From positions 124,001-188,000 of the forward strand of contig NZ_MKQR01000002.1 of NCBI RefSeq assembly GCF_001940455.1: DNA of 64,000 nt, given 5' to 3'. Positions 21,102 through 24,629 of the stretch are shown in pieces. A program made the translations under genes and the position numbers. The notes below the pieces were generated by a model. That model ran no database searches, was not told the origin of the DNA, and saw only the letters and a list, made by a program, of their open reading frames with translations. Every line of letters starts with the position of its first letter. The stretch's first letter is position 1. The DNA is from Actinokineospora bangkokensis (GTDB lineage Bacteria; Actinomycetota; Actinomycetes; Mycobacteriales; Pseudonocardiaceae).

Positions 21102-21177
21102 TCCTCCATAGCTCAATTGGCAGAGCATTCGACTGTTAATCGAAGGGTTGCTGGTTCGAGTCCAGCTGGAGGAGCCA
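21102..21177 (+). tRNA. tRNA-Asn(GTT)
   Basis: The 7-bp acceptor stem TCCTCCA (21102-21108) pairs with TGGAGGA (21167-21173). The D arm is GCTCAATTGGCAGAGC, the anticodon loop CTGTTAA has GTT at 21135-21137, and the T loop is TTCGAGT. A discriminator G and an encoded CCA end at 21177. It is transcribed away from the preceding minus-strand gene and is followed at once by a terminator. Confidence 0.97.
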
Positions 21178-21639: not shown

Positions 21640-21770
21640 GATCCACGAGTCGCGTGGGCCTCGGGTTGTGTTACTGGTCGGGGCGGCAATTCAGTTGATC
21701 GTGTTGCTTACCCTGGTGGTGTCCTGGTTCGGGGAGCCGGGGCGGTGACGTCGGGGCTGTGGGCCCGGTG

Positions 21771-21883
21771 CGCGGGTGGGGGTTACTTCACTGTTAATGA
21801 GGCGGTCGCGGGTTCGAGTCCCGTCCGCGGCTTCGGCTGCGGTAGCTCAGTTGGCAGAGCACCTGTACCTCCGCCCACTCCTG
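21771..21883 (+). ncRNA. candidate Y RNA with a circularly permuted tRNA-Asn-like module
   Basis: The tRNA parts occur in rotated order. Anticodon arm: CTTCA (21786-21790), loop CTGTTAA with GTT at 21793-21795, TGAGG (21798-21802). Five-nt variable loop. T arm: GCGGG, loop TTCGAGT, CCCGT (21808-21824). Acceptor 3' strand CCGCGGC (21825-21831), tetraloop TTCG, acceptor 5' strand GCTGCGG (21836-21842), seven pairs with one G-T. Then TA and a D arm GCTC, AGTTGGCA, GAGC (21845-21860), one base from that of the tRNA-Asn above. The free ends pair as an irregular helix (about 21771-21785 with 21865-21883), where a Ro60-binding stem would lie. Bacterial YrlA RNAs are known to carry such a closed tRNA-like module next to Ro60 genes. 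Ends are approximate. Confidence 0.8.
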
Positions 21884-21943
21884 ATCTCGGGCTCGCAGCT
21901 CCGTCGTCACCGCCTCGGTCGGCGTTGTGGAGGGGAGGCGGGC

Positions 21944-23506
21944 GTGAGCAAGTTCAACAGCTGGGTGAAGGGCGCTGTGCGGCGGCGATCGCCCGTCGTG
22001 GGGGAGTTGCGGGCTTCGGGGCGCAACCACGAGGGTGGGGCCGGGTTCGCCCGGGACCTGCGCTCGGAGCTGTTCCTGTTCGCTGTCAGCAACTTCGTGG
22101 GGGAGTCGTCCTTCTACGAGAGCGCGGCGCAGCGGGATGAGCGGTTCGGGGCGTTGGTGCGTGAGGCGGCTGTCAGCGACGCCGAGTGGACCGCGCGGTT
22201 GCTCGGGTGGTTGCGCGGCACCGCCAACATCCGCACGGCCAGCCTGGTCGGTGCGGTCGAGTTCGCGCGGGCTCGGGTGCGGGCCGGGTTGCCGGGGATG
22301 TCGCGGCAGGTCGTCGGGTCGGTGCTCCAGCGGGCGGATGAGCCGGGGGAGATGTTGGCGTACTGCCTCGCGGCGGGGCGGGCTGTGCCCAAGCCGATCA
22401 AGCGGGGCATCGCGGACGCCGTGCGCAGGCTCTACTCCGAGCGGTCCTACCTCAAGTGGGACAGCGCGCTGCGGGCTGTGCGGTTCGCGGACGTGCTGGA
22501 GTTGACGCACCCGAAGGCTGTCGATGAACGGCAGGGTGCGCTGTTCGCGCGCATCCTCGACGACCGGCACGGGAACCGGGTCGGCGGGCACAGCCGTGCT
22601 CTGCCGGTGCTCAGGGCGCGGGCCGAGGTCGACGCGGGGCGGTTGCGGCAGCTCATCGACACCGATCGCGAGCGCGCTTCGGCGGTCATCCGCAGTGCTG
22701 GGCTCACCTGGGAGGCGTTGTCCGGGGTGCTCCCGGGGCGCATGGACGCCGCCGTGTGGGAGGCCGTCGTGCCGCGCCTGGGGTACATGGCGCTGCTGCG
22801 GAACCTGCGCAACTTCGACGAGGCCGGTGTGTCCGACGCCGTTGTCCGCCAGGTCATCGGCAGGCTCACCGATCCCGAGGAAGTCGCGCGCTCACGCCAG
22901 TTGCCGTTGCGGTTCCTGTCCGCGCACCGGGCGACGAGGTCGCTGCGGTGGGCGGCGGCGCTGGAGCGGGCGCTCGACCTCTCGCTGGCGAACGTGCCTG
23001 CGTTGAGCGGGCGCACGCTGGTGCTGGTGGACCGGTCCGGATCGATGTTCCGCCCGTTGGCGCGGCGGTCCACCGTCACCGCCGCCGACGCCGCCGCGGT
23101 GTTCGGCACGGCGCTGGCCGTGCGGGCGGAGCGGGCTGACCTGGTCGAGTTCGGCTGGACGTCCGCCGCCGTGCGGGTGCGGCGGCGCGACTCCGTGCTG
23201 CGGATGGCCACCGAGCGGTTCCACGACCTCGGGGGCACCGACACCCGGGGCGCGCTGGTGCGGCACCTGCGGGCCCACCACGAGCGGGTCGTGCTGATCA
23301 CCGACGAGCAGCACCACGGGGGCGAGAGCCCGCTCGCGGTCGTCCCGGCGCGCGTCCCCGTCTACACCTGGAACCTGGTCGGCTACCGGTTCGGGCACGG
23401 CGGCAGCGGGACGCGCGACCGGCACGTGTTCGGTGGTCTCAGCGATGCCGCTTTCGGGTTGGTGCCGCTGCTGGAAGCCGGCCGCCGCGCCGACTGGCCG
23501 TTCTGA
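21944..23506 (+). CDS. rsr: bacterial Ro60 orthologue (TROVE plus vWA domains)
   Basis: A 520-residue Ro60/Rsr-type protein. Residues ~1-340 are a helical HEAT-like ring (TROVE): FNSWVKGAVRRRSPVVGELRASGRNHEGGAGFARDL, FLFAVSNFVGESSFYES, LKWDSALRAVRFADVLELTHPK, RLGYMALLRNLRNFDEAGV. Residues ~355-520 form a vWA domain with MIDAS residues D363, S365 and S367 (LVLVDRSGSM) and a later GGTDT. Ro60 binds misfolded RNA ends in its ring and Y RNA on its outer face, and in bacteria can work with exoribonucleases in rRNA maturation and stress decay. GTG 21944 follows a strong site, GGAGGGGAGG at 21929-21938. The candidate Y RNA ends ~60 nt upstream, so both may share a transcript. Confidence 0.93.
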   Translation: MSKFNSWVKGAVRRRSPVVGELRASGRNHEGGAGFARDLRSELFLFAVSNFVGESSFYESAAQRDERFGALVREAAVSDAEWTARLLGWLRGTANIRTASLVGAVEFARARVRAGLPGMSRQVVGSVLQRADEPGEMLAYCLAAGRAVPKPIKRGIADAVRRLYSERSYLKWDSALRAVRFADVLELTHPKAVDERQGALFARILDDRHGNRVGGHSRALPVLRARAEVDAGRLRQLIDTDRERASAVIRSAGLTWEALSGVLPGRMDAAVWEAVVPRLGYMALLRNLRNFDEAGVSDAVVRQVIGRLTDPEEVARSRQLPLRFLSAHRATRSLRWAAALERALDLSLANVPALSGRTLVLVDRSGSMFRPLARRSTVTAADAAAVFGTALAVRAERADLVEFGWTSAAVRVRRRDSVLRMATERFHDLGGTDTRGALVRHLRAHHERVVLITDEQHHGGESPLAVVPARVPVYTWNLVGYRFGHGGSGTRDRHVFGGLSDAAFGLVPLLEAGRRADWPF

Positions 23507-23544: not shown

Positions 23545-23627
23545 TGACCGAATCGCCCCGATGTGGTGAATACTGGTGATGCCCGAGGGTGACCGCCTGG
23601 TCACCGCCCCGTCCCCGCGAGGTGATG

Positions 23628-24629
23628 ATGTTCGGGATCGACATCTACGGTCGCTACCAGTCGGTGTCGGACTGGTCCGCGGTGCGCGGCGCGGGTGTGC
23701 GGTTCGCCTGGATCAAGGCCTCGGACGGCGGCGGGCCCGCGGTGGTGCGGGCGGACGCGTTCGTCGGCGGGGCGAAGTCGGTGGGGATCGCGGTCGGGCT
23801 GTACCACTTCGCGCAGAAGTCACCCACTCCCGAAGCCCAGGCCGACGTGCTCGTCGGCGAGGTGCGGCGGCTCGGCGCCGCGGGCATCCCGCCCGCGCTG
23901 GACCTGGAGGACAACTCCTCGACCGGCCTGCGCTGGGCGCCCGCCGAGGCCCGCGACTTCGGCACCCGGTTCCTGCAGCGGCTGCGCGCCCACGGCTACT
24001 CGCGGGTCGCGCTCTACTCCAGCACCAGCCAGCTCGCCCTGTGGGGCCCGGACAGCTGGGGCGTTCCCGGCTTGGTGGTCTGGGCGGCCCGCTACGGCAC
24101 CAACAACGGCACCAACCAGGGCCTCGGCGGCTACGCGGGCCGGGTCGACGTCCACCAGTACACCTCCGTCGGCCAGATCCCGGGCATCGCGGGCTCCGTC
24201 GACCTCAACAACGCCTTGACCAACCCGACCGAGGAGGGCTTCTTGTCCGCACTGTCCCCCGACGAGCAGCGAATCCTCTTCAACCGCGTCATGGGCTTCA
24301 TGCGCCAGCGCTGGTACGTCACCCGCCCCGCGGACGGCGCCCTGGTGGAGGTCCCCGAGGGCACCGCGGGCGCGACCCCCGCCCACGCCCTCGACACCCT
24401 CGACGGCAACTACCTGGTCGGCCTGCTCGGCATCGTCGAGGCCGATATCCTGCGCGCGCTGCGCGAGCTCAACACCGGCCAGGGCACCGTCGACCAGCTC
24501 GCCGCCGCCCTCGCCCCGGCCCTGCCCGCGAGCACCGACCCGGAAGCCCTGGCAGCGGGCCTGCGCGGCCGCCTCGCCCAGCCCCCGGCCCAACCGCCGG
24601 TGCAGCCGCCCGCGCAGCCCCCGGCGTAG
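23628..24629 (+). CDS. GH25-like lysozyme-fold protein
   Basis: A protein of 333 residues. Residues 1-~200 resemble a GH25/DUF1906 glycoside-hydrolase barrel: MFGIDIYGRYQSVSDWSAVRGAGVRFAWIKASDGG, GLYHFAQ, PPALDLEDNSS, VALYSSTSQLALWG, VDVHQYTSVGQIPGIAGSVDLNNA. The first Asp (GIDIY) and the DLED acids occupy positions used for catalysis in GH25 muramidases. The remaining ~130 residues hold a helical region (VDQLAAALAPALPAS) and a C-terminal tail of PPAQ/PPVQ repeats. No signal peptide is seen, as in many phage endolysins. Start: ATG 23628 is 5 nt after GAGG; ATG 23625 and GTG 23589 are also in frame. It is probably a prophage-derived or released wall hydrolase (inference). Confidence 0.75.
   Translation: MFGIDIYGRYQSVSDWSAVRGAGVRFAWIKASDGGGPAVVRADAFVGGAKSVGIAVGLYHFAQKSPTPEAQADVLVGEVRRLGAAGIPPALDLEDNSSTGLRWAPAEARDFGTRFLQRLRAHGYSRVALYSSTSQLALWGPDSWGVPGLVVWAARYGTNNGTNQGLGGYAGRVDVHQYTSVGQIPGIAGSVDLNNALTNPTEEGFLSALSPDEQRILFNRVMGFMRQRWYVTRPADGALVEVPEGTAGATPAHALDTLDGNYLVGLLGIVEADILRALRELNTGQGTVDQLAAALAPALPASTDPEALAAGLRGRLAQPPAQPPVQPPAQPPA

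Follow-up and report, generated by a model that had tools for sequence, protein, structure and literature searches.

A probable YrlA-type Y RNA beside an actinobacterial Ro60 gene is built around a permuted tRNA and includes its full anticodon arm

Upstream of the Ro60 gene in the window (the whole 64,000-nucleotide stretch of DNA analysed here), we found an RNA element that folds as a long end-pairing helix bearing a tRNA in circularly permuted order, its acceptor end closed by a loop. From 5' to 3' the module runs from the anticodon arm and variable loop through the T arm to the acceptor 3' strand, UUCG and the acceptor 5' strand, and finishes with the D arm. The element is best read as a YrlA-type Y RNA, a kind already known, and its complete anticodon arm is what sets it apart; many other actinobacteria have such an RNA next to Ro60. 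Because this RNA lies beside Ro60 and has all the parts of a tRNA, anticodon arm included, it is probably a tRNA look-alike held by Ro60. We consider it quite likely that it serves the adjoining Ro60 as a Y RNA of the YrlA kind, with the outer helix held by the protein and the far module forming a whole permuted tRNA L-shape.

Architecture and covariation of the element

The element, its parts and its neighbours are located as follows (A1 is the alignment described below).

21102-21177, + strand: genuine tRNA-Asn(gtt) upstream, from tRNA calls, for comparison
21753-21902, + strand: whole RNA element, about 150 nt, its extent as bounded by the terminal helix
21753-21767, + strand: terminal helix, 5' strand, pairing with 21888-21902 over 15 uninterrupted bp
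21768-21773, + strand: internal loop of the outer stem, 5' side (GTGCGC), strands conserved in A1
21774-21783, + strand: upper outer helix, 5' strand, 10 bp with 21867-21876
21788-21790, + strand: lower anticodon stem, 5' strand, tRNA positions 29-31 (TCA), from covariation and structure
21791-21797, + strand: anticodon loop CUGUUAA, 7 nt, positions 32-38, triplet GUU, from un-permuting and loop counts
21798-21802, + strand: positions 39-43 (TGAGG); 39-41 pair with 31-29, and 42-43 with 28-27 (21863, 21862)
21803-21807, + strand: variable loop, positions 44-48; C48 pairs with G15 (Levitt pair)
21808-21824, + strand: T arm, 5 bp, loop TTCGAGT, from covariation and structure
21825-21831, + strand: acceptor stem, 3' strand, 7 bp with 21836-21842
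21832-21835, + strand: UUCG tetraloop capping the acceptor end, with no free CCA end, from sequence
21836-21842, + strand: acceptor stem, 5' strand, from covariation and structure
21843-21844, + strand: U8 and A9, directly before the D arm
21845-21860, + strand: D arm, positions 10-25, from structure
21861-21863, + strand: positions 26-28; 27 and 28 pair with 43 and 42
21867-21876, + strand: upper outer helix, 3' strand, pairing with 21774-21783
21877-21887, + strand: internal loop of the outer stem, opposite side, facing 21768-21773
21888-21902, + strand: terminal helix, 3' strand, pairing with 21753-21767
21944-23506, + strand: Ro60/TROVE gene, GTG start, 520 aa, beginning 41 nt past the terminal helix

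The Ro60 protein matches PF05731 at E 1e-18, with the match limited to residues 268-333, and a glycosyl hydrolase family 25 (lysozyme-like) gene lies directly downstream of it (23589-24629). Between 21500 and 22000, neither a sigma-70-like promoter nor a terminator was found.

An earlier sequence-only reading of this DNA had recognized every tRNA arm in rotated order and had all four tRNA stems pairing. Both claims held: the sequence agrees and 30 homologues preserve the arrangement through compensatory changes, and all pairs of the proposed window structure are Watson-Crick or G-U. The same reading had placed the strand break between tRNA positions 26 and 27, which proved wrong; because the letters after the D arm (positions 26-28) supply the pairs 27-43 and 28-42, the break falls between 28 and 29, inside the anticodon stem. 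Its proposal that the free ends form a further helix was right as to the pairing of the ends, but the extent that it gave (21771-21883) was too short, the outer stem consisting of a 10-bp and a 15-bp helix within 21753-21902.

We evaluated the pairing in alignment A1, which comprises 30 Ro60-linked homologues with an anticodon-type arm picked by motif and eye, a selection that favours the arm, so that A1 tests pairing and not arm frequency. The full structure, including the tertiary pair 15-48, was paired in 98.3% of 1043 cells with double-sided changes at 24 of 35 pairs, none of 500 shuffles matched any of five pairing measures, and slid versions of the structure paired in only 34.9-46.8%. 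Among the individual helices, the lower anticodon stem was 96.5% paired with double changes at two of three pairs, the upper anticodon stem (27-43, 28-42) was 98.3% paired with double-sided changes at both, and the acceptor stem changed on both sides at all seven pairs. The homologues of the terminal helix (columns 3-9/143-149) and of the upper outer helix (columns 16-23/124-131) covary as well, and the 15-48 pair was present in 30 of 30 rows (20 G-C, 10 A-U). The D stem stands without a covariation test because its four pairs never vary in A1. The permuted tRNA fold is therefore backed by covariation in all stems except the invariant D stem, and in 15-48; the covariation of stems in relatives that the sequence-only reading had named as its check is present.

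Folding predictions differed between the alignment and the single sequence. Given A1 and no supplied structure, RNAalifold recovered the outer stems, the anticodon hairpin and the T, acceptor and D stems. The minimum-energy fold of the window sequence by itself has another inner pairing (-79.1 versus -68.1 kcal/mol for the proposed structure), and the folding energy in the window is unexceptional (z -0.51). This single-sequence inner helix, which would unfold the anticodon and D arms, was rejected because it has almost no covariation support, being 76.1% paired against a shuffled mean of 74.9%, a level that 63 of 500 shuffles reach.

Homologues, anticodon loops and linkage to Ro60

A DNA search of 100 relatives returned many short tRNA-arm matches besides long ones, and matches of at least 97 of the 127 query bases were found in G014, G022, G042, G090, G009, G006 and G055. 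Searching the genome collection with the Ro60 protein gave 64 loci, among them loci of Streptomyces, Nocardia, Amycolatopsis, Actinosynnema and Dactylosporangium, and at many of the 64 between one and several of these RNAs lie upstream. A covariance model built from A1 (R1) matched the window at 21760-21894 with 118.7 bits, the window RNA being one of its 30 building sequences. Across sources, R1 gave 108 matches in 75 (E up to 1) and 123 in 66 (E up to 0.001), for a total of 231, a few of which are plain tRNAs. The T loop and a preceding TAC-like motif allowed 157 of the 231 to be anchored, leaving 74, many of them short hairpins (about 70-78 nt). Of the anchored matches, 118 were parsed, 37 were parser failures, one belonged to an excluded tandem-tRNA locus and one was lost without a score.

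The short hairpins (L069:2227-2302, L096:1420-1490, L223:211-281 and others) lie beside Ro60 genes or tRNA-like RNAs and match R1 across its outer stem, and it is possible that they are Y RNAs without any tRNA-like module. Near Ro60 we also observed GATC-type inserts, an RNA class without an anticodon hairpin; like the minimal hairpins, these were left aside in the analysis of the arm.

For the anticodon arm we required a complete 5-bp stem and a variable loop of 4-6 nt and set no rule on the anticodon loop. The complete stem was present in 76 of the 118 parsed RNAs (73 unique); dealing the post-D letters among the RNAs in 500 trials yielded 33.3 on average and never more than 44. Within the 73 unique RNAs, which are related sequences so that the counts are not independent events, position 33 is T in 72 and A in 1, position 38 is A in 71 and T in 2, position 32 is a pyrimidine in 70 (C 64, T 6, A 3) and position 37 is a purine in 67 (A 52, G 15, C 6). 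Positions 34-36 vary, giving 28 triplets of which GTT (15), CTT (10) and CAT (6) are commonest; position 36 is T in 42, G in 13, C in 12 and A in 6, with T36-A37 in 39 of the 73 and G36 followed by G37, the m1G37 context, in 12 of 13. These loops obey the rules of tRNA anticodon loops and the triplet is not fixed. The window RNA has the 5-bp stem, the 7-nt loop and Y32 U33 NNN R37 A38 at each position. Judging from these loops, selection acts on the shape of the arm and not on Asn identity.

Linkage to Ro60 was seen both within this set and across genomes. A same-strand Ro60 was found in the fetched locus for 68 of the 73 unique RNAs, in 63 of which its start, extrapolated from the tblastn match, lies 25-520 nt downstream; the other five had no Ro60 in the fetched stretch. 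Among these, L022:1428-1578 and L155:2468-2603 are possibly extra or orphan copies, the L155 genome having its Ro60 on another contig. Ro60 occurred in 53 of 394 genomes of the class. With R1 at E 1e-8, matches were found in 74 of the 394, a figure that may miss weak copies because only eight candidates were scored per genome. Full-length matches were found in 56 genomes, 50 of them among the 53 with Ro60, and for 78 of the 92 full-length matches, spread over 49 genomes, a TROVE match lay no more than 4 kb away. Six genomes had a full-length match without Ro60, and in five of these it overlaps neighbouring tRNA calls. By hand count, at least 34 of the 53 Ro60 genomes carry an RNA with a complete anticodon stem; in the other 19, a figure that takes in parser failures, no RNA with a complete 5-bp stem was found, and the arm may therefore be dispensable.

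Some phages carry the pair too. Ro60 homologues were found in 81 phage records, and in four of eight inspected phages (GiJojo, Alone3, Atuin and BRock; L213, L214, L216 and L220) the Ro-like gene sits inside a tRNA array. Gordonia phage VanLee has a complete example upstream of its Ro-like gene (112.6 bits), and the stretch labelled tRNA-Arg(tct) in its record (65454-65525; L215:2665-2736) makes up the 5' portion of this permuted RNA. Most phage copies appear to lack the 5-bp anticodon stem, since of 22 phage matches of at least 100 nt, 13 were parsed and only 2 have one. A further 24 viral contigs, several of which look like duplicates, were picked by a DNA pattern in which part of the loop is fixed and position 43 is left open, and were not used for R1; their 33 matches of at least 100 nt yielded 26 parsed RNAs, with 27-43 paired in all 26 by four pair types and 15-48 also paired in all 26.

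Relation to tRNAs and to known Y RNAs

Un-permuted in silico, the window RNA is called tRNA-Asn(gtt) by ARAGORN. Over the 85 RNAs with a lower stem of at least 3 bp, ARAGORN calls a tRNA in 75 once they are un-permuted and given a CCA tail, with odd isotypes (Stop, Pyl, undetermined) in a few, and in none of the same 85 when they are left permuted; the two sets are identical modules, except that only those put back into tRNA order carry the added tail. As encoded, the element is no contiguous cloverleaf with a free CCA end, the UUCG joining its acceptor strands, and in genomic order it scores 26.1 bits with the Rfam tRNA model against a gathering score of 29. ARAGORN also calls a plain tRNA-Asn at 21761-21834, an ordinary cloverleaf that misorders pieces of the Y RNA, which we rejected because the homologues conserve the permuted pairing. 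Other Ro60-side RNAs attract similar tRNA calls.

As the sequence-only reading had it, the anticodon loop of the window RNA (CUGUUAA, triplet GUU) is identical to that of tRNA-Asn. With the loop masked, the body of the window RNA is closest to tRNA-Thr(cgt), and tRNA-Asn falls outside the five best. Across the set, the triplet and the nearest real tRNA agree in isotype for 11 of the 73 RNAs, where permutation gives a mean of 4.0 and reaches that count in 3 of 5000 runs. The comparison set here is 125 real actinobacterial tRNAs, cleared of three false tRNA calls made on Y RNAs (one in L001 and two in L111); leaving those calls in gives 12 of 73 for a set of 127. The match of body to triplet is above chance, yet small and influenced by relatedness.

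The proposed descent from tRNA-Asn finds partial agreement: the loop is shared and tandem tRNA-Asn pairs hold the permuted module, but the masked body is nearer to tRNA-Thr(cgt), and we regard such descent as possible. In these pairs (L140:2479-2630, L141, L147, L163), two tRNAs a few bases apart present across their spacer the same part order as the element, and they match R1. Differences from tRNA-Asn are the capped acceptor, which as drawn cannot be aminoacylated, the Ro60-type flanking helix and a triplet that changes among homologues. A tandem tRNA pair that lost its outer halves would fit as the origin and give a good account of it, because letters for positions 27-29 are present on both strands and Streptomyces-like tandem tRNA-Asn pairs exist. 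Among the homologues, no transitional form between a tandem tRNA pair and a permuted RNA was found.

Other Ro60-side RNAs resemble other tRNAs. Four (L088:2241-2379, L116:1350-1486, L146:2503-2651 and L107:1217-1356) have a D arm of tRNA-Glu type (TCGTC.. or TCGAC..) and the triplet CTC, and the nearest real tRNA of each is tRNA-Glu. Another four (L103:1248-1399, L108:1245-1397, L113:1289-1439 and L135:2498-2644) have a tRNA-Leu-like D arm (TGGCGGAA..AGACGCG) and a long variable arm, and apparently represent permuted class II tRNA mimics without an anticodon hairpin.

Of the Rfam families, YrlA matches the element best (38.4 bits, E 3.6e-07) and tRNA second best (E 0.002), and the YrlA score lies below the RF02553 gathering score of 69 bits. 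That score was likewise unreached in all 24 other loci tested, where the YrlA model gave 32.6-44.5 bits in 10 loci and at most 53.9 in 14 more; at E 0.01, three of the 24 (L137, L135 and L146) had no YrlA match. In arrangement, the element agrees with bacterial Y RNAs in its position beside Ro60, its paired ends with a conserved internal loop, and its closed, permuted tRNA-like module. It shares with YrlA (RF02553; tRNA-like module of Salmonella YrlA, PDB 6CU1) the location beside Ro60, the ends in a long stem, the circularly permuted D, T and acceptor arms with a loop-closed acceptor end, and the pairing, at the site of the upper anticodon stem, of the strands that follow the D arm and precede the variable loop. 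The Rfam YrlA consensus has no lower anticodon hairpin, its stem continuing into the Ro60 stem, whereas the element has a 3-bp lower stem and a 7-nt anticodon loop, with the junction between positions 28 and 29. By eye, the AUGC/ACUUG strand pair of that consensus resembles the strands of the element's internal loop (21768-21773/21877-21887), which is likely the region of Ro60 contact.

In Deinococcus and animal Y RNAs, too, the ends pair into a helix, which there serves as the Ro60 handle; to our knowledge, the loop of animal Y RNAs has no tRNA fold. A 2018 paper on the YrlA structure reportedly mentions actinobacterial Y RNAs that are still closer to tRNAs; if so, their anticodon arm may already be in print. 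Passages of one source describe YrlA as mimicking the D, T and acceptor arms, as a substrate of DusA and TruB and as a tether for PNPase (PMC8394870), and passages of another describe a YrlA fold that superposes on tRNA by circular permutation (PMC11472068). Among the literature matches listed, we recognized no description of a Y RNA with an anticodon arm. The sequence-only claim of a genuine anticodon arm in a Y RNA-like RNA next to Ro60 is upheld, now with covariation in relatives.

Proposed function and alternative readings

We propose that Ro60 would hold the outer end-pairing helix and that the permuted tRNA body would face outward. By analogy with YrlA, which tethers PNPase and is modified by TruB and DusA, this body would present a tRNA-like surface to some protein that handles tRNAs. 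The T arm, the UUCG-capped acceptor, the D arm and the full 5-bp anticodon stem with its 7-nt loop of U-turn type would together build the tRNA L-shape, with the chain coming in and going out by way of the anticodon stem, at the 28/29 junction. The anticodon arm would add a contact that reads the shape of the arm or its U-turn and not the triplet. As the capped acceptor should rule out charging, the RNA could engage tRNA enzymes and still stay out of translation. More tentatively, and short of what we would call probable, these RNAs may be permuted, uncharged tRNA replicas bound by Ro60 in Actinobacteria and some phages, with an arm selected independently of the triplet, that recruit or decoy an enzyme of tRNA damage, repair or modification, some copies being modelled on different tRNAs (those with Glu-like D arms and CTC; those with Leu-like D arms and long variable arms).

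A more specific role as a decoy or sensor in RNA damage and repair, in which the arm would bait anticodon-loop nucleases or tRNA-mending ligases and Ro60 would present or recycle the RNA, is possible but doubtful. The arm retains U-turn features and not the triplet, as such bait might, although the decoy of a nuclease that reads the triplet should have retained its triplet. Of the 53 Ro60 genomes, 48 have RtcB, compared with 128 of the 341 others in the same sample, a comparison uncorrected for relatedness, but in the window genome RtcB lies on a different contig from the Ro60 element. Passages of PMC7790460 suggest a nuclease-inhibitor role for the tRNA-like domain of Salmonella YrlA, and in the same passages YrlA fragments went undetected in Salmonella. 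The Ro60 genes inside tRNA arrays of four of the eight phages would also suit a decoy, phage tRNAs having been proposed to counter host tRNases (PMC10264068). We think it unlikely that the RNA is instead a substrate mimic for enzymes that modify the anticodon loop (such as those that make t6A at A37 or pseudouridine at 38-40) and makes its contact through the loop once modified. The couplings of U36 with A37 and of G36 with G37 point that way, and passages of PMC4132733 have tRNAs for ANN codons (U36) bearing t6A at 37. However, position 36 is unfixed, position 37 is C in 6 of 73, and the couplings come from related sequences and are not independent; inheritance from tRNAs would give the same look, because the comparison tRNAs show the same couplings (G36-G37 in 19 of 28, T36-A37 in 22 of 25).

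Competition for asparaginyl-tRNA synthetase or other tRNA-Asn enzymes, which the sequence-only reading had raised, is very improbable as the function of a tRNA-Asn-specific mimic. GTT occurs here and in 15 of the 73 unique RNAs in a loop that is that of tRNA-Asn; the other 58 carry other triplets, so that we rejected Asn mimicry as a property of the family, and with the loop masked the triplet's isotype was seldom the best match and the window RNA lacked tRNA-Asn among its top five. Still less credible, indeed hardly tenable, is a non-functional remnant of a tandem tRNA duplication whose outer halves decayed. The tandem tRNA-Asn pairs do contain exactly this module, and five of the six genomes with a full-length match and no Ro60 have it overlapping tRNA calls, but covariation across genera, the conserved outer helix and the linkage to Ro60 argue against decay, and a remnant would lose the 27-43, 28-42 and 15-48 pairing.

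The reading we prefer, a YrlA-type Y RNA that presents a permuted tRNA body from Ro60, would make this a natural RNA that is tRNA-like in three dimensions and not in chain order, and in which an anticodon arm need not decode. With the triplet free, the features of the anticodon arm that tRNA enzymes need become testable. The finding also accounts for some of the spurious tRNA calls that turn up near Ro60 in genomes of bacteria and phages, suggests the tandem tRNA pair as a possible route to tRNA-like Y RNAs, and points to a tRNA-handling partner for Ro60.
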